A stretch of 64,000 nucleotides of DNA, taken from the NCBI GenBank assembly GCA_028284905.1, contig JANQQU010000022.1, forward strand, positions 1-64,000, in the 5' to 3' direction. The DNA is from Calditrichia bacterium (lineage in GTDB: Bacteria; Calditrichota; Calditrichia; RBG-13-44-9; J075). The notes beneath the pieces were generated by a model that made no database searches, was not told the DNA's origin, and saw nothing but the letters and a program-made list of their open reading frames with translations. Positions 44,443 to 59,508 of this stretch are shown here, one piece after another (within the stretch, counting starts at the first letter, position 1; each line of letters starts with the position of its first letter). The translations under genes and the position numbers were made by a program.

Positions 44443-45642
44443 ATGGTCTCAGAAAGATCCGAAAATACTGCAAGTTTCGATTTGGTCATTGTGTGTCCGC
44501 ATTTAGGAGATGGGGGCTCTCAGCGGGTAATAACAACTCTGGCCAACAATTGGAACCGTTCCGGAAAACGAATATGTGTCATAACGCTCTTTCGGGATAA
44601 AGCGGTCTATACACTGGATAAAGGCGTCGCACTTACCAATGTGCAACAGGACTATTCCCATAAACTGAATCCGTCATCAGTCTCAATCTTTCAAAGAATA
44701 AAAGGCGTATTGTGGGGCGGACTGCGATTGATTCGGTTGGATGCGCGCTTCGGAAAATATTATCACTATTACAATCTGATAATTTATCTACGAAAAACGT
44801 TGAGCCGGTATAAATCAGACGTTGTGCTGTCTTTTATCGGATCGACAAATATAATAACGATTCTCGCCTGCCGGGGATTAGGACGCAAGGTAGTGATCTC
44901 CGAGAGGAACGATCCCGGACGCCAGCGTCTGGAGCAGCCCTGGGATCGGTTACGGCCAATTTTATATAAGCGTGCGGATATCGTTACTGCCAATACAATG
45001 CATGCCCTGGAAACAATGCAGCGGTATGTGCAATCGGAAAAACTGGTATTTGTCCCTAACCCATTACTGCCGAAAAGAAGCATGAATGATGTGCAGATGA
45101 TTTCGGAAATCAAGGGGCCTTTTATCCTGGCGGTAGGGCGACATCATCCGCAAAAAGCGCAGGATATTCTTTTACGGGCATTTCAGTTATTACCGAAAAC
45201 AATGGCTCACTGGCAGCTGGCATTGATTGGTCAAGGAGAATTGACAAGCCAGTTGCAGGAGCTCGCCCGGGAACTGGGTATTGCTGAAAGAGTGCTTTGG
45301 CCGGGGCAGGTAGAAAATCCATTTCCATACTATCGATCTGCATCAATATTTGCTTTGCCATCCCGGCATGAAGGTATGTCCAATGCTTTATTGGAAGCTA
45401 TGCACTGCGGTCTGCCAGCGATTGTGAGTGATGCATGCCCGGGCTCTCTCGAGCTGGTAAAAAATGATATAAACGGTTTAGTAACACCGGTTGATAATCC
45501 ACAGGCACTGGCAAAAGCCATTGTGCGTCTGGCTGAAGATGAAAATTTGCGAAACTCTCTGGGAGCGGCTGCGAAGGCATATACCGCTGATTACGAATTG
45601 ACGACAGTTCTCAAGAAATGGGAAACGGTGCTGGGGATATGA
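44443..45642 (+). CDS. GT4 family glycosyltransferase (first cluster gene)
   Basis: A 399-residue GT-B enzyme. N-terminal domain: 'FDLVIVCPHLGDGGSQRVITTLANNW'. The C-terminal donor-binding half starts 'GPFILAVGRHHPQKAQDILLRAFQLLP' and has 'LGIAERVLWPGQVENPFPYYRSASIFALPSRHEGMSNALLEAMHCGLPAIVSDACPGSLELV', the E-x7-E signature of GT4 enzymes. It should add a nucleotide-activated sugar to a lipid or glycan acceptor on the cytoplasmic face. It leads twelve plus-strand genes, and its stop overlaps the next start by 4 bases (ATGA). The N-terminus resembles capsule/slime enzymes that act early in chain building. Confidence 0.92.
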   Translation: MVSERSENTASFDLVIVCPHLGDGGSQRVITTLANNWNRSGKRICVITLFRDKAVYTLDKGVALTNVQQDYSHKLNPSSVSIFQRIKGVLWGGLRLIRLDARFGKYYHYYNLIIYLRKTLSRYKSDVVLSFIGSTNIITILACRGLGRKVVISERNDPGRQRLEQPWDRLRPILYKRADIVTANTMHALETMQRYVQSEKLVFVPNPLLPKRSMNDVQMISEIKGPFILAVGRHHPQKAQDILLRAFQLLPKTMAHWQLALIGQGELTSQLQELARELGIAERVLWPGQVENPFPYYRSASIFALPSRHEGMSNALLEAMHCGLPAIVSDACPGSLELVKNDINGLVTPVDNPQALAKAIVRLAEDENLRNSLGAAAKAYTADYELTTVLKKWETVLGI

Positions 45643-47486
45643 TATTGAAGCTTTTGAGGAAATTAAGTTTAACAAAAAGTCGTGAGGCGATAAAACGCTA
45701 TCAGGAAGTGGCCTTTTGGATTGCCAGGGACGGGCTGTGGCGATACCGGAATGCCGCGATAGTTACGGTAATATTTAGCTTTCTCGGGCTGGCTGGCGAA
45801 GTTGGCACCTATGCGGTTATTTATCAATATGCCAGTTTGCTGGAAAGCGATAGAACCCTAACCCTTCTCGGGTATGAACTCACTGCACGTACTTCCAGTG
45901 ACTTATTGGTTGCCGTCGCAATTGCAATGTTTATATGCTCTGTGATGTCTGCGTTGGGGTTCTATTTCTCGAAAAAATATGCCCTGGATATTTGGAAGTC
46001 CTATGAAATTTATTGTGCTCGCCGCATTACGATTTTGAGCAGCTATCTGCCGCATCCGTCCAGTCCACTGGCATCAGAGATGTTTTCGAAAGCAAATATC
46101 CGTATGGCGACAAAAAAGGAAGCACGGTATAGCGGGCGGGTATTGTTTCATATTCTGAAAATGGTATTACCGGTTTCCCGGGTGTTTGCAAGCGTTATCG
46201 TAATGTTCGCAACAAACTGGTTCTTTTCATCAATCATCTTTGCTTTACTGCTTGCAGCGCAAATTTTTCTTTATCGCCTGAACGTAAAAGTTTCAAAAAG
46301 CTCCCGTTCTTTTGAAAACTACAATAAAGATTCTAACCAGGAACGCAATCAATTAATGGCCCATATCTGGACCAGCCCGGTGCCACTGAATAAAAAGCAC
46401 CCATTGTTGACGGTGAATGATGAAGAGAGTTTAGTCCGGAAAAGTATGTCAGAATTTCTGAACCGTCTGTTAATAAAGGAAAAGACCTCTCTGGTCGTCA
46501 ATTTGTTGACGGCAGTTTCGTTGCTGCTAATTTTATTGGTTGCCGGGGTCGGGATAATATCCGGGCAGTGGCGCTGGAGCCTGTTCCTGATTTACGTGGC
46601 TTCACTGAGATTCTTCCTCGGAAGTTTGATGCAGGCCAGTACTTCACTAACTGTGATCAGCCGTTATTATCCATACATCAAGGGTTACTGTCGTTTTGTA
46701 AAAGATGCGCAGGCTGCCGTCGTGGCGAAAAATGCCAATTTATCCTCGACACCGGTTGTGTTAAATGTGCCATCTGTAACTGGGAATGCAAACTCTCTTC
46801 AGCTGCATTCCGGAAAGAATGTTTATCTGGTTCACCCCGGATTGGCTGATCGTGATTTGCTAAAACTGTTTCATGAGAAAACAGAAACGAAAACCAACTG
46901 CGGTATTTACGGGTTTGCCGGTAATGAAGTATTTCGGGAAAATAGCTTGCGTAAATGCCTGGGATTCCCGCAATCTTTCAGCAGTAAGGAAGTGAATGAA
47001 ATCCTGGAAGATATGATTGTTTGCGATCCAATTCTGGAAGCGATTTTCTCGGCAGGATATACGGCGAATCTATTGCCGGACACGGGCATAAGATCTGCCG
47101 GCATCGATTTGGATGCAATTATCAGCGAGCGAAAGATCGCAGAATTACCAGCAGAAATTAAATATGGCTTGAATATGTTGGCAGCGATATTAAGTGGGCG
47201 TCCGGTCATTTTTACTTACAATGATGGCAGTGGTTACTGGCAGGATCATTTTATTCAATACTTCCGCCTAAAATACGGCGATCGTTTGATTGTGGAAATT
47301 CGGGACAAAGTGCCGGAAGACCTTTCCGAGAATGCCACTGTTCTGTTCTCGAATGGAGAAGAACTCACTGGCTGGGCACGAGGACGATCCCTGGTGATCG
47401 ATCCGGAATTAGCCCGGGAAAATGCCGAATTGTCCCAAATACCGTTTCGTATACTTTACGGGGACGACGGGGAAAATGAAGACTAA
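45639..47486 (+). CDS. ABC-exporter-like membrane protein with degenerate ATPase domain
   Basis: A 615-residue protein starting at an ATGA overlap with the GT4 gene. Residues 1-340 resemble the six-helix transmembrane part of ABC exporters: helices around 'AAIVTVIFSFLGLAGEVGTYAVIYQYA', 'LLVAVAIAMFICSVMSALGFYF', 'VSRVFASVIVMFATNWFFSSIIFALLLAAQIF' and 'LVVNLLTAVSLLLILLVAGVGIISG'. Residues about 385-600 have the spacing of a nucleotide-binding domain, but the Walker A position reads 'LQLHSGKNVYLVHPGLADRDLLKLF' (no GxGKS/T). The signature/Walker B region reads 'PAEIKYGLNMLAAILSGRPVIFTYNDGSG' (no LSGGQ, no DE). ATP hydrolysis is therefore unlikely. It could act as a passive partner or scaffold in glycan synthesis or export. 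Confidence 0.75.
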   Translation: MILKLLRKLSLTKSREAIKRYQEVAFWIARDGLWRYRNAAIVTVIFSFLGLAGEVGTYAVIYQYASLLESDRTLTLLGYELTARTSSDLLVAVAIAMFICSVMSALGFYFSKKYALDIWKSYEIYCARRITILSSYLPHPSSPLASEMFSKANIRMATKKEARYSGRVLFHILKMVLPVSRVFASVIVMFATNWFFSSIIFALLLAAQIFLYRLNVKVSKSSRSFENYNKDSNQERNQLMAHIWTSPVPLNKKHPLLTVNDEESLVRKSMSEFLNRLLIKEKTSLVVNLLTAVSLLLILLVAGVGIISGQWRWSLFLIYVASLRFFLGSLMQASTSLTVISRYYPYIKGYCRFVKDAQAAVVAKNANLSSTPVVLNVPSVTGNANSLQLHSGKNVYLVHPGLADRDLLKLFHEKTETKTNCGIYGFAGNEVFRENSLRKCLGFPQSFSSKEVNEILEDMIVCDPILEAIFSAGYTANLLPDTGIRSAGIDLDAIISERKIAELPAEIKYGLNMLAAILSGRPVIFTYNDGSGYWQDHFIQYFRLKYGDRLIVEIRDKVPEDLSENATVLFSNGEELTGWARGRSLVIDPELARENAELSQIPFRILYGDDGENED

Positions 47487-47543
47487 AACTATAAACTAGA
47501 TAAATTTAAAGGGTTATAATTCCGAACAGGCAGGGAAGCCAGG

Positions 47544-48428
47544 ATGGAAAACGAACGGATTCAGTCAAAGAACAGACCTTATCGGATTGTCTATATCGCC
47601 GGTGCCGGTAGAAGTGGCTCAACACTGTTAGGACGGCTGCTGGGTGGACATCCACAGACATTTTTTCCCGGAGAACTGAAAGTTTTCTCGCCAACGAAGA
47701 AATTGCGGGGAAAACCGGCACGGGGAAACCGTCGATGCGGCTGCGGTGTGAATGCCAGCAATGAGTGCCATTTCTGGGAAAGCGTCGCAGCTTACCTGCA
47801 AGAGCATCATCAGCTCGGATTGTGGACGAACCTTGAAGTTCACAATGGGGATGCTCTCACATTCCGCAATCATAACCTTGCTTTGTATGATGCAATACAT
47901 GCCATTAGCAAAGCGCCCTTCATCATCGATTCCTCAAAATCTCATAGTCGCCTGGAAAAGTTGATAGCCAGTCAACTCTTTGATATTCGCGTGATTTACC
48001 TGCAGCGAAATCCTTATGGGGTTGTGTATTCCAATGTCAAACTTGGTCGGGATCTTCGTTACTATTCCCGGCATTATGCCCAAAATTACCATTACACCCG
48101 CAAGCTGCTAAAAGGGCATGATCATTATTATGTGCGTTACGAAAAGCTGGTTGAAAATCCTGAGAAAACGCTAAAAGATATCATGTGCTGGCTCGGCGTA
48201 CCATATGATTCCGCACAGCTGAACTGGAGAGAATCGACTTTTCATATTATTGCCGGAAATAAACCCCGGATGATAAATGACCGGCTAATTGCGCCGGACA
48301 ACAGCTGGCGGAAACAACTGACGATCCGAGAGAAAATACATATTAGCCGCCGCTCTTTGCCCGGTTACATGGCGAACATTTGGCGCTATGAAAAAAAGCC
48401 TGCCATCTTGCAACGGAGGGCTTTATGA
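47544..48428 (+). CDS. sulfotransferase family protein (copy 1)
   Basis: A 294-residue cytoplasmic protein. It has the PAPS-binding P-loop-like segment 'IAGAGRSGSTLLGRLLGGHP' (19-38). The 3'-phosphate motif is 'VIYLQRNPYGVVYSNVKLGRDLRYYSRHYA', and 'HYYVRYEKLVENPEKTLKDIMCWLGVPY' ends the core. A Cys-rich insertion 'RCGCGVNASNECHFW' occurs near residue 65. It would transfer sulfate from PAPS to a hydroxyl of a glycan or lipid. A second, clearly related copy lies at 50930, with the same insertion and order of motifs. The stop overlaps the next start (ATGA). Confidence 0.88.
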   Translation: MENERIQSKNRPYRIVYIAGAGRSGSTLLGRLLGGHPQTFFPGELKVFSPTKKLRGKPARGNRRCGCGVNASNECHFWESVAAYLQEHHQLGLWTNLEVHNGDALTFRNHNLALYDAIHAISKAPFIIDSSKSHSRLEKLIASQLFDIRVIYLQRNPYGVVYSNVKLGRDLRYYSRHYAQNYHYTRKLLKGHDHYYVRYEKLVENPEKTLKDIMCWLGVPYDSAQLNWRESTFHIIAGNKPRMINDRLIAPDNSWRKQLTIREKIHISRRSLPGYMANIWRYEKKPAILQRRAL

Positions 48429-48952
48429 GCTTGCTGAGCAAAACAATTCGCTTTGCTGGTAAGGGGGCGATTTACCTGGGATTACTCGTCCTGATCTATT
48501 TAATCCCGGCCCTGACGATACTCTGGTTGTTTACATTGCTTAACCTGTTGATCCGGGAGAGCTTTCCGTTTTCCCATTTTCCCATGTATTCGAAGTTTTC
48601 AGATTTTACATACTACGTTTTTATTGCGGATGAATTTGGCGAGCCGATTCCACTGAAGGAAAACTTTGGTATTCGCACAACCTTTTTAAAGAAAATTTAT
48701 ATCACTGAGGTTCGTGCACTAAATCCGAAAGGGATTGCCACCCGTAAACTACCACAGGCGCTACTGAATGAAGCAGGCATTCGTTTGTTGGAAAGAGTGC
48801 GGTCCTTTCCCGCCGCGCGTAGAGTTGCCAATCATAAATTTGAGCGAATTCGTCTTTATCAGGTGAACGTTACACTTGAAAAGGGACTGATTCGCCGGGA
48901 GAAATGCTTAATTGCGGAGGTGAGGCAGAATGAGTATCTGGCAGCCGGTTGA
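48425..48952 (+). CDS. small membrane protein with 'PFSHFPMYS' motif
   Basis: A 175-residue protein, ATGA-coupled to the sulfotransferase gene. Hydrophobic helix at about 12-43, then 'FPFSHFPMYSKFSDFTYYVF', a stretch typical of small proteins encoded beside HTTM/VKGC-like membrane proteins, which is the case here. The remainder is a soluble beta-rich domain ending 'RREKCLIAEVRQNEYLAAG'. Function is unknown. Its 3' end overlaps the start of the HTTM-like gene by 23 bases, an arrangement that suggests joint function. Confidence 0.7.
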   Translation: MSLLSKTIRFAGKGAIYLGLLVLIYLIPALTILWLFTLLNLLIRESFPFSHFPMYSKFSDFTYYVFIADEFGEPIPLKENFGIRTTFLKKIYITEVRALNPKGIATRKLPQALLNEAGIRLLERVRSFPAARRVANHKFERIRLYQVNVTLEKGLIRREKCLIAEVRQNEYLAAG

Positions 48953-49805
48953 TTACGCCACCTTCGAAATATTCTTTATGAAACTGGGATTCGCTTATGT
49001 GCTCTACGGCGTTTTTTCCAGTAACATTGCCTTTGCTTCCCAGCCCCATCCGGTCGGTATCGCCCGTGCGGTTAATCTGACTTATTTCTCGCAGCCGCAG
49101 GTTAATACCCTGATGGTTGCCACCGGATATTTGTGTTTACTGCTCTATCTCACCAACATTGGCACTTTGGCAGCACTACCGGTGTTGTTTGCTGTGCTCT
49201 GTGTTCTGGAAGTTTTGCGCAGTTCCCAGGGGGCAGCAACGCACAGCAAGCATGTGCTCGGACTGGCATTGCTTGCCCAGCTAATACTTTATTGGGCATT
49301 TTTTCTTTTTCCTGATGGCTGGTGGTCGGATATGGGAAATCCCGATCAGGTAGCGTTGTTCGTAACCCAGCAAGCGGTTGTTGCGCTCTATTTCACTTCG
49401 GCGATTACCAAGCTTCGCCGCTCCGGATTTAGCTGGATAAAAAATGCCCCTTTTATCAAGCTTGATATCATTAAATCCAGCGAACAAAAGTATTGTGATG
49501 CACTGGATAAATCCTGGCTGGAGAAGCAGAAGGCGCTCGATAAAGGAATCTTTCGCCATCGGAATATTATTCGACTGGTGCTCGCATCCGGACTGATGAT
49601 TGAATTGCTGTCGCCGTTATTCCTGATCAACCGAATCACGTTACTGCTGGGCGGCGGACTCCTGTTGCTTTTTCATAATATGGTCGGCAGTCAAATGGGC
49701 ATCCATTTCAAAAAGCTGCAATGGATGGTGTTAATCTTTTTTATCAACCCACCTTATTGGGGGATGGTTTTACTGGAAACAATCAGCGGAAATTTTAGAG
49801 GATAA
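48930..49805 (+). CDS. HTTM-like membrane protein (vitamin-K-carboxylase-like)
   Basis: A 291-residue integral membrane protein. The N-terminal amphipathic segment 'YATFEIFFMKLGFAYVLYGVF' leads into several helices ('VNTLMVATGYLCLLLYLTNIGTLAALPVLFAVLCVLEVL', 'VLGLALLAQLILYWAFFLF', 'QQAVVALYFTSAITKLRRSG' and 'IIRLVLASGLMIELLSPLFLI'). 'HNMVGSQMGIHFKKLQWMVLIFFINPP' near the end resembles the HTTM/VKGC helical-bundle family ('R.G..Ff.n', 'm.i.f......l.f'). True carboxylase residues are not evident. It overlaps the preceding gene by 23 bases and has gcggaggtgagg upstream. Location: inner membrane. A role in the modification chemistry of the cluster product is inferred only from context. Confidence 0.7.
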   Translation: MSIWQPVDYATFEIFFMKLGFAYVLYGVFSSNIAFASQPHPVGIARAVNLTYFSQPQVNTLMVATGYLCLLLYLTNIGTLAALPVLFAVLCVLEVLRSSQGAATHSKHVLGLALLAQLILYWAFFLFPDGWWSDMGNPDQVALFVTQQAVVALYFTSAITKLRRSGFSWIKNAPFIKLDIIKSSEQKYCDALDKSWLEKQKALDKGIFRHRNIIRLVLASGLMIELLSPLFLINRITLLLGGGLLLLFHNMVGSQMGIHFKKLQWMVLIFFINPPYWGMVLLETISGNFRG

Positions 49806-49806
49806 T

Positions 49807-50919
49807 ATGAGAATTGTATATCTTGCCAATACACGTATTCCTTCCCGAAGGGCAAATAGCAAGAACGTAATGAAGATGTGCCAGGCGTTGGCGCATAACG
49901 GTCATAAAGTCGTTTTGATGAATTATGATTACCCGGATGTTGAAAAAGATGTTGCAGACGTGTATGATTTTTACGGTGTAGATAAATGTTTTCCTATCAA
50001 GCTGCTGCCACGCAGAGGACAATCTTCCCGAATCGACTATCGCACCCGGATAAAATGGTTCGTGCGAATGCAGCGGCCGGATTTAATAATACTGAGAGAC
50101 CACAGTCTCCGTTACGATCCTGCACGTATGGGCATCCCGATTGTGCTCGATGCGCATAAGCTTATTTACAGCCCGAGAGATATCGCCCCATTCCGGAAAT
50201 TGCTGGCGAGCAATCATTTTACCCGGATGATAACGAATTGCAACGCATTGCGCAGCGCTTACTTAAGGAATTATCGGATTCCGGAAGAAAGGATTCAGGC
50301 GTTGCATAATGGCGCGGATCTGCCGAAAAATGTCCAGCCATTACGGCTAAAGGAGAATGGGCGTTTGCAGGTGGGTTATGTCGGCCATCTTTATCCCGGA
50401 AAGGGGATGGAAATTATCAGCGCGCTGGCGCCCCGCTGCCCCCATGTCGATTTCCATGTAGTCGGCGGCACTACTGCCGATGCGGCTTATTGGCAAGAAA
50501 AATTGAAAGATGCCGCAAATGTCCGCTTTCATGGTTTCCAGCCGCATCAGGAAGCGGTGCGTTGGCAATTAACGATGGATGTGCTTTTGGTGCCCTGCCA
50601 GCGGGAAGTTGCCTCAGCCGGCGGGGGCGGATTAAATATTGGCGATTGGATGTCTCCGATCAAAATCTTTGAATATATGGCAGCCGGAAAAGCGATCCTC
50701 GCTTCCGATTTGCCGGCAGTGCGGGAAATTCTCAGTCACAATAAAAATGCATTCCTTTGTGCACCGGACGATATCGAAGCCTGGATGAAGGCTCTGAAAT
50801 TTCTCGCTGACCACCCGGCGCGAAGAAGCTCACTGGGAGCAACCGCCCGGGAACACTTTCAACAAAATTATACCTGGCAGGGGCGTGCAAAGCAATTACT
50901 TGCCGGACTAGCAAACTAA
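49807..50919 (+). CDS. GT4 family glycosyltransferase (second)
   Basis: A 370-residue GT-B enzyme. N-terminus 'IVYLANTRIPSRRANSKNVMKMCQALAHNGHKVVLMN' and a donor domain with 'LQVGYVGHLYPGKGMEIISALAPRCPHVDFHVVGG', 'VRFHGFQPHQEAVRWQLTMDVLLVPCQ' and 'SPIKIFEYMAAGKAILASDLPAVREIL', where the glutamate of the GT4 signature is kept (E in IFEYM). It follows the HTTM-like gene by one base and is one of two glycosyltransferases in the cluster, so the product glycan probably holds at least two transferred sugars, or one enzyme starts and the other extends it. Confidence 0.92.
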   Translation: MRIVYLANTRIPSRRANSKNVMKMCQALAHNGHKVVLMNYDYPDVEKDVADVYDFYGVDKCFPIKLLPRRGQSSRIDYRTRIKWFVRMQRPDLIILRDHSLRYDPARMGIPIVLDAHKLIYSPRDIAPFRKLLASNHFTRMITNCNALRSAYLRNYRIPEERIQALHNGADLPKNVQPLRLKENGRLQVGYVGHLYPGKGMEIISALAPRCPHVDFHVVGGTTADAAYWQEKLKDAANVRFHGFQPHQEAVRWQLTMDVLLVPCQREVASAGGGGLNIGDWMSPIKIFEYMAAGKAILASDLPAVREILSHNKNAFLCAPDDIEAWMKALKFLADHPARRSSLGATAREHFQQNYTWQGRAKQLLAGLAN

Positions 50920-50929
50920 GATTTGAACT

Positions 50930-51841
50930 ATGAAAAAATTACCAACAATCATTTATATCGTCGGGCGGGGGCATAGCGGATCCACTTTGTTGGATTTGTT
51001 GATTAGCTCTCATTCAGCAACAATCAGCGTTGGAGAAATAAAATCCTTTTCGCAGAAGAAAAAGGACAAGGGACGTCATCTTCTGGAAGAACCCTGCACT
51101 TGCGGCGCGCCGAAAATTCGCGATTGCAAATTCTGGACAATGGTAAATGACATTTTACAGAAAAACGATGGACTTACCCTGGATGCACTCGATGTCTATC
51201 ATGATGATCCGGAAACATTCAAAAAACATAACCGGGCGCTGTACCGGGCAGTTCAGGAAGTTAGCGGTAAAAACTATATTGTCGATTCTTCCAAGGACAT
51301 TAAACGGCTTGCCTGGTTGGTGCGCTGCGGCTGCTTCGATATTCGGCCTGTTCACCTGATGCGCAATCCACTCGGGGTCATTAATTCTCAAATTCGACTG
51401 GGACACGACTGGGTCGACCATACCCGGAAATACACGGCTGTTACCATGCAAACCCGTCGTTTACTACGGGACGTCCAATACTGGAAAATCCGTTATGAAG
51501 ATCTGGCCGGCAACCCGGAAAATACTATTTCAGAAACTATGCGCTGGTTGGGGCTATCCTATGAAAAGAGCCAGCTAAATTGGCCAACACATCTGCATCA
51601 CAACGTTAATGGGAACCGGATGCGCTTTAAGCGGAACAAGGAAATTAAAGTGGACAACAGCTGGCAAAAGAGTTTGTCCCGCAGGCAGAAATTGCGGATT
51701 CGCTGGATGACCTTCCCAACGAAAATGACTGGCACCTGGTTGTATGAAAGCTGTCCGGCGTTGTGGAATCTGAACGCTGGCGAGAAAAGGCGCTTACACC
51801 TACGAACCACCGTCGCAAATTTTATGACGAATCGGTCGTAA
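50930..51841 (+). CDS. sulfotransferase family protein (copy 2)
   Basis: A 303-residue paralogue of the protein at 47544. 'IYIVGRGHSGSTLLDLLISSH' (PAPS loop, about 8-28), the same Cys insertion ('EPCTCGAPKIRDCKFW'), 'YIVDSSKDIKRLAWLV', 'DIRPVHLMRNPLGVINSQIRLGHD' and 'WKIRYEDLAGNPENTISETMRWLGLSYEKSQLNW' all align. Retention of both copies in one cluster suggests sulfation at two positions or on two acceptors. The gap after this gene (177 bp) is the largest within the cluster and may hold an internal promoter. Confidence 0.88.
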   Translation: MKKLPTIIYIVGRGHSGSTLLDLLISSHSATISVGEIKSFSQKKKDKGRHLLEEPCTCGAPKIRDCKFWTMVNDILQKNDGLTLDALDVYHDDPETFKKHNRALYRAVQEVSGKNYIVDSSKDIKRLAWLVRCGCFDIRPVHLMRNPLGVINSQIRLGHDWVDHTRKYTAVTMQTRRLLRDVQYWKIRYEDLAGNPENTISETMRWLGLSYEKSQLNWPTHLHHNVNGNRMRFKRNKEIKVDNSWQKSLSRRQKLRIRWMTFPTKMTGTWLYESCPALWNLNAGEKRRLHLRTTVANFMTNRS

Positions 51842-54692: not shown

Positions 54693-54956
54693 ATGGCCAC
54701 TAACACTCAAACAATCAAAGACACAGTTAAGAATTACCTGATGACCGAATTCTTGCCGGGCGAAGATCCCAACGATTTAACCGATACCACACCACTGGTA
54801 ACCGGAGGGATTCTCGATTCAATTTCAACTTTTAAACTGGTCGGGTTTCTGCACAGTAAATTCGATGTAAAGCTGAATGCGAACGAAATTGCCAATCACC
54901 TCAACACGCTGAACGACATCACCGATATCGTCCAGGCTAAACAGGGGGTGGCATGA
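54693..54956 (+). CDS. acyl/peptidyl carrier protein (proline carrier, DltC/PltL-like)
   Basis: An 87-residue four-helix carrier protein. The phosphopantetheine attachment site is 'GGILDSISTFKLVGFL', with Ser43 in DSI. The preceding 'DTTPLVTGG' and following 'FDVKLNANEIANHLNTLNDITDIV' match standalone peptidyl carriers. ATGA overlap couples it to the adenylation gene. It should carry the L-prolyl, then pyrrole-2-carboxyl, thioester. A separate phosphopantetheinyl transferase must come from elsewhere in the genome. Confidence 0.93.
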   Translation: MATNTQTIKDTVKNYLMTEFLPGEDPNDLTDTTPLVTGGILDSISTFKLVGFLHSKFDVKLNANEIANHLNTLNDITDIVQAKQGVA

Positions 54957-56458
54957 CCCGCCGATTGGAAAATTTGCTCGGCGATGCGCACCAACTATAT
55001 CCTGATCGTGTTGCAATTGAAGGACCGGATGAACAGTCGGTTTCTTATGGGAAATTTGCCGGTGCTGTTGCAAAGATTGCAGCATTGCTGCAAGCACAAG
55101 GTATTGGCAACGGCGACCGGGTAGGTATTTATGCCCATAAGTCAATTAACACTGTTGCAGCAATGTTTGGTATTATGACAGCCGGTGCAGCATATGTGCC
55201 GGTTGATCCCGATGCGCCCATTCGTAGAAATGCCTACATCTTTAGTGATTGCCAAGTGAAAGCAGTCTGGGCAGAGGATCGCTTACTTTCCCGGTTGCAG
55301 GGCGCTTTTCCGGCGGAGCAGGTCGGACGGGTGTTGCGAATCGACGATGTCAGCGGCATTTGCTTGCAGGAAATTCAATTTCCCGATACTGTGCGTTCGG
55401 ATGATCATCTTGCTTACATTCTTTATACTTCCGGTTCTACCGGACAGCCAAAAGGTGTGATGATTTCCCATGAAAACGCTTTGAGTTTTGTCGATTGGTG
55501 TAGCGACACCTTCCAGCCGATGCCCGAAGATCGTTTTTCATCCCATGCGCCATTCCATTTTGATCTTTCAATTCTCGACCTGTATGTCAGTTTCAAGCAT
55601 GGGGCAACACTCGTGCTCATCGATGAAGTGACCGCAAAACAACCGGCTCCGCTGGCGGCATTCATTGCCGACAGACGGATTACGGTCTGGTATTCCGCGC
55701 CGTCGATTCTCAGCATGATGACGCAGTTTGGATGCATGGAAACCCACAACTATGATGCACTACGCCTGGTGCTTTTTGCCGGAGAAGTGTTTCCGGTAAA
55801 ATATCTCCGTTCCCTTAAGCAGATCTGGCAACAGGCGAGATATTTCAATTTATATGGCCCAACGGAAACCAATGTCTGCACTTATCATGAGATTCCTGCG
55901 GATATTCCTTTCGAGCGAAACGAACCATATCCGATTGGGAAAAGCTGTTCCCATGTCGATTGTCAAATGCTGACGGGCGAGGATGGCAGCGGGGAGTTGG
56001 TTGTACGTGGAGCTTCAGTGATGAACGGCTATTGGCGGCTGCCGGAGCGCAGTGCCAAATCCTATCATATTGACGATAAAGGTGCAGCCTGGTATAAAAC
56101 CGGCGACCTGGTACAGATTGATACTGCCGGAGATTTTATCTTCCTCGGACGGCTCGACCGAATGGTGAAACGGCGGGGCTATCGCATAGAATTGGGAGAG
56201 ATAGAAGCGGCACTCTATCGACATCCGGCAATCCTGGAAGTTGCCGTTGTTGCCGAGTCGGTTGATGAAGAGCTGACCATTACAGCCTTTATTAGCACTG
56301 CTGCCGAAGAAAAGTTATCACTGATTAAGCTGAAGCAGTTTTGTGCAGATCACCTTCCGCTGTATATGATGCCGGACCGCTTCAATTATCTGGACGGTTT
56401 GCCAAAAACTTCTACCGGTAAAGTAGATTATCAGCAGCTCAGCCTGCAGGAGGCGTAA
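54953..56458 (+). CDS. L-proline--carrier ligase (free-standing adenylation domain, PltF-like)
   Basis: A 501-residue adenylation enzyme. Core motifs: A3 'YTSGSTGQPKGV' (158-169), A4 'FHFDLSILDLY', A5 'YGPTETN' (301-307), A7 'WYKTGDL', A8 'RMVKRRGYRIELGEIE' and A10 'PKTSTGKVDY' with catalytic Lys490. Aligning the pocket to GrsA gives D204, L205, L208, Y247, L274, A276, L300, V308, C309, K490, i.e. D-L-L-Y-L-A-L-V-C-K. To my knowledge this is the code of free-standing L-proline activators in pyrrole pathways (PltF, RedM, CloN4 type). It would make prolyl-AMP and load the neighbouring carrier protein. The start overlaps the carrier stop (ATGA). D-alanine ligase (DltA) is the alternative, but the code argues against it. 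Confidence 0.9.
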   Translation: MTRRLENLLGDAHQLYPDRVAIEGPDEQSVSYGKFAGAVAKIAALLQAQGIGNGDRVGIYAHKSINTVAAMFGIMTAGAAYVPVDPDAPIRRNAYIFSDCQVKAVWAEDRLLSRLQGAFPAEQVGRVLRIDDVSGICLQEIQFPDTVRSDDHLAYILYTSGSTGQPKGVMISHENALSFVDWCSDTFQPMPEDRFSSHAPFHFDLSILDLYVSFKHGATLVLIDEVTAKQPAPLAAFIADRRITVWYSAPSILSMMTQFGCMETHNYDALRLVLFAGEVFPVKYLRSLKQIWQQARYFNLYGPTETNVCTYHEIPADIPFERNEPYPIGKSCSHVDCQMLTGEDGSGELVVRGASVMNGYWRLPERSAKSYHIDDKGAAWYKTGDLVQIDTAGDFIFLGRLDRMVKRRGYRIELGEIEAALYRHPAILEVAVVAESVDEELTITAFISTAAEEKLSLIKLKQFCADHLPLYMMPDRFNYLDGLPKTSTGKVDYQQLSLQEA

Positions 56459-56459
56459 A

Positions 56460-57608
56460 GTGGATTTTAACTTATCGGAAGAACAGCAATCTCTGCGCGA
56501 GGAGATAATCCGCTTTGCCCGGAAAGAACTTAATGAAGGCGTTATCGAACGGGATCGTGCACAATATTTCCCGCATGATCTCTGGATGAAATGTGGTGAA
56601 ATGGGTTTGCAGGGATTGCCCGTGCCTGTCGAATATGGCGGCTCAGGACTGGATCCACTGACCACGGCGATCGCTATGGAAGCATTGGGATATGGTTGCG
56701 AAGACGGCGGTTTAACGTTTGCAATCGCGGCCCATCTGCTTGCTTGTGTTGTGCCGGTTTGGAAGCACGGTAGCGAAGCGCAAAAGAAACGCTACTTGCC
56801 CGGCCTCTGCAATGGCGGGTTGATTGCCGTAAATGGTATTACAGAAGCAGCGTCCGGTTCCGATGTTTTTTCCATGGCAACAACAGCGATGGCTACAGAT
56901 ACCGGCTATATGTTGAATGGCAGTAAAACTTTCAGCTCCAATGGCCCGGTTGCCGATCTGGCCCTGATCTATGCCAGCACAGATGCGGAGAAGGGCTATC
57001 GTGGCGGAATTAGCGCCTTTTTGGTTGAAAAAAATACCCCGGGGTATCGTTCCGGGCAGCGCTTCGAAAAAATGGGATTGCGTACCTGCAGCATTGGTGA
57101 ATTGGTGCTGGAAGATGTTCAGGTCCCGGCAGACGCGATGCTCGGAGAAATCGGCACCGCTGCCGTAATCTTTGCCGAGTCGATGGCCTGGGAACGGATC
57201 TGCCTTGTCGCCTGCCATGTTGGAACGATGGAACGATTACTGGAGCAAGCGATCAATTATGCCCGCACCCGAAAAACCGGCGGGCAGCCGATTGGTAAAA
57301 TGCAGGCAATTTCGCATCGCATTGCCGATATGAAAATTCGACTGGAAGCAACCCGTCTGTTGGTGTACCGGGCTGCTTCTCGTCTGGGTGACAGTTGGGA
57401 GATAGATCTGGACGCCGCCATCGCTAAAATACATGCCAGCGAAGCACTGGTTAAAACCGCCATGGATACCATGCAGATTCTTGGTGGCTACGGATTTATG
57501 GTCGATTATGGCGTGGAAAGAGTGCTGCGCGATGCGATGGCGAGCACTATTTATTCCGGCACTTCGGAGGTGCAACGGAATATTATTGGCCGTTGGTTGG
57601 GGCTTTAG
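56460..57608 (+). CDS. prolyl-carrier protein dehydrogenase (acyl-CoA dehydrogenase family, PltE-like)
   Basis: A 382-residue flavoenzyme of the acyl-CoA dehydrogenase fold. FAD and fold motifs are 'NGITEAASGSDVFSMATTA', 'NGSKTFSSNGPVADL', 'AINYARTRKTGGQPIGKMQAISHRIADM' and 'QILGGYGFMVDYGVERVLRDA'. The usual catalytic Glu of MCAD-type enzymes is Ser366 in 'IYSGTSEVQ'. A glutamate occurs at the alternative helix-G position, E245 in 'SMAWERICLV', as in isovaleryl-CoA and prolyl-carrier dehydrogenases (CloN3/PltE/RedW). This fits oxidation of prolyl-S-carrier to pyrrole-2-carboxyl-S-carrier. The GTG start has ggagg 7 bases upstream, inside the end of the ligase gene. Together with 54693 and 54953 the three-step pyrrole module is complete. 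Confidence 0.88.
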   Translation: MDFNLSEEQQSLREEIIRFARKELNEGVIERDRAQYFPHDLWMKCGEMGLQGLPVPVEYGGSGLDPLTTAIAMEALGYGCEDGGLTFAIAAHLLACVVPVWKHGSEAQKKRYLPGLCNGGLIAVNGITEAASGSDVFSMATTAMATDTGYMLNGSKTFSSNGPVADLALIYASTDAEKGYRGGISAFLVEKNTPGYRSGQRFEKMGLRTCSIGELVLEDVQVPADAMLGEIGTAAVIFAESMAWERICLVACHVGTMERLLEQAINYARTRKTGGQPIGKMQAISHRIADMKIRLEATRLLVYRAASRLGDSWEIDLDAAIAKIHASEALVKTAMDTMQILGGYGFMVDYGVERVLRDAMASTIYSGTSEVQRNIIGRWLGL

Positions 57609-57655: not shown

Positions 57656-58990
57656 ATGAAATCCATTCCCTTAAAATCCGATGTTGTTGTTATTGGTGGT
57701 GGCCCTTCCGGCAGTACTGCCGCAAATGCACTTGCCCAGGCAGGATATGATGTCGTTTTGCTGGAAAAGGCGAAACATCCCCGGGAAGTGGTTGGAGAGA
57801 GCATACTGCCCTTCGTTTGGAAATACACTGACCTGCTTGGCGCAACGAAGGCACTACAAAAAATGCGCTTTATGGAGAAATCCGGCGGTACGACTTTCTG
57901 GAACAATCAACTAACGCAAATGACTTTCCGGGATTTTGACTTTCAAACCCCGGCATTGCATGTGGAAAGAAATATTTTCGATGACATTTTACTTCGAACA
58001 GCAGAGCAAAAAGGGGCCAGGATTTTTGAGGAAGTGATTGTAAAAGACCTCCAGCTGAACGGTTATGACAATCAGGATGTTTTCTATTTTGATACGCTCA
58101 ATGGAAAATCAGGAAAAATTAGCTGCCGTTATCTCGTTGATGCCAGTGGCCAGGCTGCCCTGGTTGCGAAAAAACTTGGCTTCCGGGAATATGATAAAGA
58201 CCTGCGCTTTATGAGCATTTGGGGATATTTCAAGGAAAGCGATTATGTTGCTTTGGGAGGTGATGTTCTCCCGTTCTCACAGCGATATGAAACACCACCG
58301 ACTACCGGCATCTATCAAATCGGGGAATGGGGATGGTGCTGGCAAATTGTACAGAATGACCAGGTGAGTGTCGGTCTGGTATTATCTCCGGAGCAATTTA
58401 GCGAGTTTAAATTGCAGGATGGCAATTTGGAAGAGCGCTTTCTCAGTGCTTGTAGAAAAGTGCCCTTGCTTTCGGATATGCTAAAATATGACACGCTTAT
58501 TCCCGGATCAGTGCGGGCTATTCGCGACTTTGCCTACTACCCGCGGGAACTGGCTGGCAAAGGGTGGTTTCTGACCGGAGATGCAGCAGCGTTTGTCGAT
58601 CCGATTAACTCCGCCGGAGTGCTGGGGGGCTTTTATACCGGTTATATGGCTGCAATGGCAATCGACGATTCGTTGAAGAACAACAAAAATCGGGATTATG
58701 CCGTGGAAAGATTCTCGGAATTATTAAGAGGGCGTATGGCGGTCTATCGTCTTTCCGCTTTGCCGGTTGGTGTTAATAGCTATCAGGAAATGTATCCTTA
58801 TGCGCTAAGCTGTCTGAAACAGATGAGCGATCTTGAAAAGGAATTAATTTATACCCAGATGATATTGATTAACCGGACAGAAAATCTCGATATCATTTAT
58901 CAGCTTGATCCTGATTTCCGCAGACTGACATCGAAGAAATACACTCTTCTGGATGAGTTGCATTTTCCCGCTTCCAGCCCGGTTGTCTAA
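57656..58990 (+). CDS. FAD-dependent halogenase-like oxidoreductase
   Basis: A 444-residue single-FAD protein. It has 'VVVIGGGPSGSTAANALAQAGYDVVLLEKAKHPREVVGES', the fold and 'VGES' of flavin-dependent halogenases, and 'RYLVDASGQAALVAKKLGF' and 'GDAAAFVDPINSAGVLGG'. Lys75 in 'EKSGGTTFW' may be the halogenase lysine. The halogenase WxWxIP signature reads W-C-W-Q-I-V (227-232): two Trp and Ile kept, Pro replaced by Val. This could be a pyrrole halogenase (PltA/Clo-hal role) or an oxygenase of the same class. An aaggagg site precedes the ATG at 57656. It is the last gene of the cluster; halogenation at this step is a hypothesis. Confidence 0.8.
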   Translation: MKSIPLKSDVVVIGGGPSGSTAANALAQAGYDVVLLEKAKHPREVVGESILPFVWKYTDLLGATKALQKMRFMEKSGGTTFWNNQLTQMTFRDFDFQTPALHVERNIFDDILLRTAEQKGARIFEEVIVKDLQLNGYDNQDVFYFDTLNGKSGKISCRYLVDASGQAALVAKKLGFREYDKDLRFMSIWGYFKESDYVALGGDVLPFSQRYETPPTTGIYQIGEWGWCWQIVQNDQVSVGLVLSPEQFSEFKLQDGNLEERFLSACRKVPLLSDMLKYDTLIPGSVRAIRDFAYYPRELAGKGWFLTGDAAAFVDPINSAGVLGGFYTGYMAAMAIDDSLKNNKNRDYAVERFSELLRGRMAVYRLSALPVGVNSYQEMYPYALSCLKQMSDLEKELIYTQMILINRTENLDIIYQLDPDFRRLTSKKYTLLDELHFPASSPVV

Positions 58991-59079: not shown

Positions 59080-59508
59080 ATGGAAATTAGACGATTGATT
59101 GCAAGTGACCTCGCAGATACGGAGCAATTACTGACTTCCGTTAAATTGCCATTGGAAGGTGTGCAAACACATTTCCAGCATTTTATTGGTGCCTTTGATG
59201 GTGCTTCATTAATTGGCACAGCCGGATTGGAAATTTATGGCGATAAAGGATTGTTGCGCTCTTTAGCGGTGCGGGCGGATAATCAGGGGCAGGGGAGAGG
59301 GCTTCAGCTTTATGAAGCGATAGTTGCAGAAGCCCGGCAAAAAAAACTGTCCGAGATATACCTGCTGACCGAAACTGCGGAGAATTTTTTTGCTCGCCAG
59401 GGATTTATCCGAATCCCCCGCGAGAGCGCCGATGCGGCCGTGCAACAATCAGTAGAATTTCAATCGGTTTGCCCGGCCAGTGCGGCATGTATGAAATTGG
59501 TGCTCTGA
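59080..59508 (+). CDS. GNAT acetyltransferase, ArsN2-like
   Basis: A 142-residue N-acetyltransferase. The acetyl-CoA site is 'LLRSLAVRADNQGQGRGLQLYEAIVAEAR' (the R/Q-x-x-G-x-G/A motif A), followed by 'EIYLLTETAENFFARQGF' (motif B) and a C-terminal 'SVEFQSVCPASAACMKLVL', whose Cys-containing CPASAxCM ending is typical of ArsN2-type proteins associated with arsenic resistance. No arsenic-resistance operon is adjacent, so the substrate is open. aaggag lies before the ATG and an operator-like inverted repeat at 59033-59047 suggests its own regulation, separate from the upstream cluster. Confidence 0.85.
   Translation: MEIRRLIASDLADTEQLLTSVKLPLEGVQTHFQHFIGAFDGASLIGTAGLEIYGDKGLLRSLAVRADNQGQGRGLQLYEAIVAEARQKKLSEIYLLTETAENFFARQGFIRIPRESADAAVQQSVEFQSVCPASAACMKLVL

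Follow-up and report, generated by a model that had tools for sequence, protein, structure and literature searches.

The window, by which we mean the whole 64,000-nucleotide stretch of a Calditrichia bacterium contig that was analyzed, carries a unit of five genes on its plus strand, encoding in this order an MBOAT-SGNH fusion, a carrier protein, an adenylation ligase, a dehydrogenase and an FAD enzyme (Table 1). The carrier gene sits directly upstream of the ligase gene, with which it overlaps by four bases. Glycosyltransferase and sulfotransferase genes precede the unit; this set is not conserved beside the unit in other genomes, and it is possible, for the window genome only, that it supplies an acceptor. 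Promoter and terminator scans returned sites no more numerous than in shuffled sequences and were thus uninformative on the limits of the operon. Just past the unit, at 59080-59508, lies a gene for ArsN2, an N-acetyltransferase of the arsenic-resistance type (152 bits; cut-off, 125).

Table 1. Genes and protein features of the unit and of the region upstream of it
Feature	Position	Strand	Evidence or remark
Same-strand upstream genes, whole span	44443..51841	+	
Two GT4 glycosyltransferases	starts 44443, 49807	+	
Three membrane-protein-like ORFs	starts 45618, 48425, 48930	+	No Pfam match
Two sulfotransferases	starts 47544, 50930	+	
MBOAT-SGNH fusion, membrane protein, 849 aa	52019..54568	+	AlphaFold2 fold; located before the carrier gene
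Fusion, MBOAT domain (DltB-like membrane acyltransferase)			His336, Asn293
Fusion, inter-domain motif GYYE (GYYExL)			Tyr524
Fusion, C-terminal SGNH domain			Ser611, Asp811, His813
Stand-alone peptidyl carrier protein, 87 aa	54693..54956	+	Phosphopantetheine Ser43; Pfam PP-binding above cut-off
Adenylation enzyme, PltF-type L-proline code DLLYLALVCK	54953..56458	+	ORF, 501 aa
Prolyl-carrier dehydrogenase, acyl-CoA dehydrogenase fold	56460..57608	+	NCBIfam PigA, RedW; PDB 4irn, 5zw0
FAD-dependent halogenase-type enzyme	57656..58990	+	CndH 141, CmlS 137, RadH 136, PltA 119 bits

An earlier note, made from the sequence without database searches, had assigned ten pocket residues to the ligase (D204, L205, L208, Y247, L274, A276, L300, V308, C309 and K490), had read the resulting code D-L-L-Y-L-A-L-V-C-K as that of L-proline ligases of the PltF/RedM/CloN4 type, and had set the enzyme apart from DltA. 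The ten residues proved exact in position, and the code held, with no shift at any of the nine positions within the PltF alignment. In this phmmer alignment, crystallized PltF (6o6e_B) has the pocket D-L-L-Y-L-A-L-V-C, identical to that of the window ligase at 9/9 positions. The alignment ends ahead of K490, hence the comparison of nine rather than ten positions; K490 is invariant across 20 aligned relatives. The pockets read off the alignments of PigI (7thn_B; D-L-F-Y-I-A-W-V-C) and DltA (3e7w_A; D-L-M-T-M-C-T-V-A) have six and three of the nine residues, respectively, in common with the window ligase. The separation from DltA therefore held at the level of the pocket. It needs a qualification, however, in that other parts of the unit, namely the DltB-like MBOAT, the SGNH domain and the carrier, resemble the Dlt pathway.

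The earlier note had also proposed a structure model and its comparison with PltF as a check, which we ran. The AlphaFold2 model of the ligase (pLDDT, 86.7) retrieved PltF from the PDB at ranks 1 to 3 (TM score, 0.87; approximately 40% identity), PigI at rank 6 and DltA at rank 31. PltF is also the best single-domain sequence match among the solved adenylation enzymes. Against the DltA models the ligase scored 300 bits, far below their cut-offs of 476 and 560 bits. Furthermore, the same code was found in more than 30 relatives from several phyla, with variation mainly at positions 208 and 274, and is therefore no chance match. The PltF-type reading is thus supported by sequence alignment, structure search and neighboring genes, with RedM and CloN4 remaining outside the comparison. 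Given a pocket identical to that of PltF at 9/9 positions and PltF as the top fold, against 3/9 for DltA, we consider it very likely that the ligase activates L-proline, in the absence of any activity assay.

The same genome encodes a second proline-like ligase (L019, G000:C26:144501-146048), a stand-alone enzyme with the code DLHYLALVIK; its locus is exopolysaccharide-like and contains, besides two acyl-CoA dehydrogenase-like genes, glycosyltransferase- and sulfotransferase-like genes but no MBOAT fusion. A third ligase (L020, G000:C67:85579-87087) has the code DMFFIGMGCK and lies in an NRPS cluster, adjacent to a prolyl-dehydrogenase-like gene.

In the PDB, the carrier matches PltL best and PigG and DltC almost as well, and its phosphopantetheine serine is conserved in 36/36 relatives. 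The dehydrogenase reached 445 bits against the NCBIfam model PigA (cut-off, 500) and 407 bits against RedW (cut-off, 650), missing both equivalog cut-offs; from sequence alone, we nevertheless infer that it belongs to the same group as these two enzymes. Its best solved relatives, 4irn (363 bits) and 5zw0 (310 bits), are both prolyl-carrier dehydrogenases, and its Glu245, a glutamate of the catalytic type that aligns to the Glu of 4irn, is kept in 32 of 36 relatives. The 4irn enzyme, which is of the AnaB type, is known to stop at the pyrroline. The window FAD enzyme retains GxGxxG, the catalytic lysine, WxWxI and FxxPxxSxG. It lacks the proline of WxWxIP, and its activity is therefore uncertain, so that halogenation in the window genome is an inference, plausible but not certain. 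Homologs of this enzyme at 50-56% identity adjoin the ligase in three other loci (L060, L070 and L078), and the one in L078 has WCWHIP.

The fusion had no family over cut-off in Pfam or NCBIfam, Pfam giving only subthreshold matches even at an E value of 10, and its fold was therefore taken from structure prediction. The AlphaFold2 model (pLDDT, 86.5) matched DltB (8jem/6bug) first in the PDB fold search, followed by the MBOATs HHAT and PORCN and then by SGNH esterases, the latter on the C-terminal part of the model. The TM score for DltB was 0.63, normalized to 6bug. Together, these matches identify the protein as an MBOAT-SGNH fusion. In the final alignment, from which the likely frameshifted L038 row was left out, H336, Y524, S611 and H813 are conserved in 37/37 relatives, and D811 and N293 in 36/37.

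In PatA/PatB and Dlt, the acyl group passes from the MBOAT histidine to the tyrosine of an FXYXXF motif and on to the SGNH serine (PMC12148441). Tyr524, with Leu527 at +3, resembles this acyl-shuttle motif, and the segment holding Tyr524 (residues 521-539) was modeled with low confidence, as expected of a flexible linker. The DltB active site has been described with His336 and His289; in other MBOATs, the histidine is paired with Asn or Asp (PMC11035591). We infer that Asn293 and His336 of the fusion fit the latter pattern; the number 336 common to the histidines of both proteins is a coincidence. The residue set of an MBOAT/SGNH acyl-tyrosine relay (MBOAT His, Tyr motif and SGNH Ser/Asp/His) is thus present in the fusion. 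A covalent acyl-tyrosine intermediate and transfer outside the cytoplasm remain inferences.

Scanning bacterial and archaeal genomes for the fusion yielded 43 loci, to which a Microvirga plasmid was added (44 in total). Relatives span at least seven phyla, mostly Gram negative, the groups including Rhodothermota, Gemmatimonadota, Pseudomonadota, Acidobacteriota, Planctomycetota, Hydrogenedentota, Verrucomicrobiota and Bacteroidota; among named isolates are Paraglaciecola arctica BSs20135 and Methylomonas sp. SURF-2. Carrier, ligase and dehydrogenase are all encoded no more than 8 kb from the fusion in 20/44 loci, two of the three in 4/44 and one in 1/44. The remaining 19 loci have no member of this trio nearby, and more than half of them are near contig ends. 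Eleven of the 18 genomes harboring loci without a complete linked trio encode a ligase of at least 53% identity at some place in the genome; a close ligase is absent from the other seven (most are metagenome-assembled).

Fusion and ligase also co-occur at the level of whole genomes. Of the 114 genomes in the order of G040, nine carry the fusion, and the same nine carry a ligase scoring above 530 bits, with neither in the other 105 (Fisher P = 1.5e-13); in one of these nine, G075, a distance of about 2.9 Mb separates the two genes on a single contig. Similarly, among 295 genomes of the class of G044, 10 have the fusion, 11 the ligase and 8 both (P = 5.6e-12). Neither value is corrected for kinship. 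In three genomes of this class, the ligase is present and no fusion was detected. Two of these exceptions (L140 and L141, from G175 and G187) hold ligase and dehydrogenase genes between ABC-transporter-like genes, with identities to the window proteins of 50-52% and 66-68%, respectively, an arrangement that could point to a different use for the activated group. Among 39 other genomes from the window's own phylum, neither the fusion nor the ligase occurred at comparable strength, which suggests that the window genome gained them laterally.

In the ligase tree, the window ligase and 32 ligases of fusion-bearing genomes form one clade (support, 93/90), outside of which fall two ligases linked to KAS III genes, further ligases from plasmids and the remaining ligases of the window genome. 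The linked ligase of Neolewinella (L057), divergent and on a long branch, also falls outside. Ligase and fusion distances are correlated (Mantel r, 0.61; 0/2000 permutations). Several genomes have three to five fusion copies and a single activation trio, as if, possibly, one pool of acyl carrier fed several acceptors. Around linked and unlinked fusions alike, we found no common partner except scattered glycosyltransferases, and no conserved acceptor gene. Partial copies consisting of the SGNH domain only (L122:7777-8877, L124:3976-5064 and L125:13331-14386) start just ahead of the GYYE motif and adjoin the activation trio or a full fusion copy; because they run up to contig ends, or nearly so, they may be truncated full-length genes. 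In L142:6449-9341 (G336), a carrier gene lies directly upstream of the fusion, and a close ligase was not found in the genome.

The pocket, the enzyme families, the fused fold, the invariant residues and the co-occurrence are computed results, and on them we built a scheme whose reactions and transmembrane route are inferred, without biochemistry. The ligase would load L-proline onto the adjacent carrier, and the dehydrogenase would convert the prolyl-S-carrier into a pyrrolyl-2-carboxyl-S-carrier, which the FAD enzyme may halogenate in the window genome. At the cytoplasmic face, the MBOAT domain would then unload the carrier; the acyl group would go from His336 to the linker residue Tyr524, from which the SGNH domain (Ser611-Asp811-His813) would deliver it to a hydroxyl beyond the membrane. 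The presence of ligase, carrier and dehydrogenase together in nearly all linked loci points to an oxidized prolyl group. Pyrrole-2-carboxyl is favored over proline or pyrroline because a PltA-like halogenase (397 bits to PltA) adjoins the unit in L062, and the substrate of PltA is the pyrrolyl-S-carrier (reference 28 quoted in PMC10377541). In 6/44 loci, FAD halogenase-type genes are found at no more than 8 kb from the fusion. By inference, the cargo is probably halogenated in some cases, and the acceptor is perhaps a glycan.

We therefore lean, with some reserve, toward a second carrier-protein-dependent MBOAT/SGNH system, built on a Dlt-like plan, with pyrrole-2-carboxyl as cargo and an unknown acceptor. 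The acceptor is the weak point of this reading, since no conserved acceptor gene lies near the unit; an envelope glycan or glycolipid is inferred, and a sulfated one is no more than a guess for the window organism. A bolder reading, for which we see as much reason to doubt as to believe, is a widespread modification of the envelope in at least seven phyla, in which the fusion would esterify surface glycans or glycolipids with (halogenated) pyrrole-2-carboxylate, one trio serving several fusion copies.

The unit shares with the pyoluteorin dichloropyrrole pathway (PltF/PltL/PltE/PltA) the ligase pocket and top fold, a carrier closest to PltL, a dehydrogenase of the same activity class and an FAD enzyme from the broader halogenase family. 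However, the trio is accompanied by an MBOAT-SGNH fusion in place of a polyketide synthase, and the window FAD enzyme is only distantly PltA-like and without the WxWxIP proline, the close PltA relative being that of L062. The prodigiosin enzymes PigI/PigG/PigA (and RedM/RedO/RedW) likewise form a trio of proline ligase, carrier and dehydrogenase, and PigA is the best-scoring model of the window dehydrogenase, but the PigI pocket deviates at 3/9 positions and the pathway ends in a tripyrrole pigment. Teichoic acid D-alanylation (DltA, DltC, DltB, DltD and DltX) has in common with the unit a ligase, a stand-alone carrier, an MBOAT of the DltB-type fold with an invariant histidine, and an SGNH domain with a conserved tyrosine motif near it. 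Unlike Dlt, the unit occurs in mostly Gram-negative phyla and has a proline pocket, an extra dehydrogenase, and MBOAT and SGNH in one chain. No separate DltX was recognized, although no such small gene was sought, and the Tyr524 motif of the linker could conceivably stand in for it. PatA/PatB and related MBOAT/SGNH O-acetyltransferases share the proposed His-Tyr-Ser relay (PMC12148441) but use an acyl-CoA donor and separate proteins, whereas the window unit has a carrier protein and a fusion.

Among the other readings, the one we take most seriously is that the unit makes a secreted small molecule, the fusion esterifying a pyrrolyl group onto a sugar or metabolite, as in the aminocoumarin antibiotics, rather than onto an envelope polymer. 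This is possible, as the three activation genes also work in natural-product pathways, lying next to a KAS III gene in, for instance, Streptomyces and Mycetohabitans, the nearest ligases outside the clade are those KAS III-linked ones, and glycosyltransferase and sulfotransferase genes precede the window unit. Nevertheless, most linked loci have no recurring assembly genes, and three to five fusion copies per trio suit several envelope acceptors better. It is less likely that the cargo is L-proline or 1-pyrroline-carboxylate, the dehydrogenase stopping after one oxidation or working elsewhere. In its favor, the closest solved match of the dehydrogenase, 4irn, is of the AnaB type; against it, PigA and RedW rank first in NCBIfam, and one of the halogenase-type genes near the fusion in 6/44 loci is close to PltA.

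Still weaker is the view of the fusion as an ordinary acetyl-CoA O-acetyltransferase with incidental prolyl neighbors. The other known MBOAT/SGNH systems do use acyl-CoA without a carrier protein (PMC12148441), and the ligase is missing from some fusion genomes. However, fusion and ligase co-occur at the genome level in two lineages, unlinked copies such as those of G075 included, and the unit recurs in seven phyla or more, which makes this very unlikely. Finally, a true Dlt system with a D-alanine-activating ligase can be all but ruled out: the ligase does match the DltA models strongly in a general way (300 bits), as do many adenylation domains, but a prolyl dehydrogenase accompanies it. We rejected membership in Dlt on the basis of the pocket (3/9 with DltA versus 9/9 with PltF) and of scores far under the DltA cut-offs.

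Our preferred reading remains that the proline pocket belongs to a conserved unit, organized like Dlt and including parts missing from it, whose cargo we infer to be pyrrole. According to a 2025 paper, MBOAT/SGNH systems other than Dlt are without a DltC-like carrier protein (PMC12148441), and in the open-access literature that we searched (open-licence papers only) we found no description of an MBOAT linked to pyrrole-carrier genes. A four-gene unit conserved in many bacterial phyla apparently, by inference, makes a carrier-bound pyrrole and passes it out through the membrane, and an MBOAT-SGNH family lying under all Pfam and NCBIfam cut-offs gains a testable function. If this is true, a classic antibiotic building block would be tied to the cell surface, and a second system of the Dlt plan, with an aromatic cargo, would make that plan a more general one for exporting carrier-bound acyl groups.
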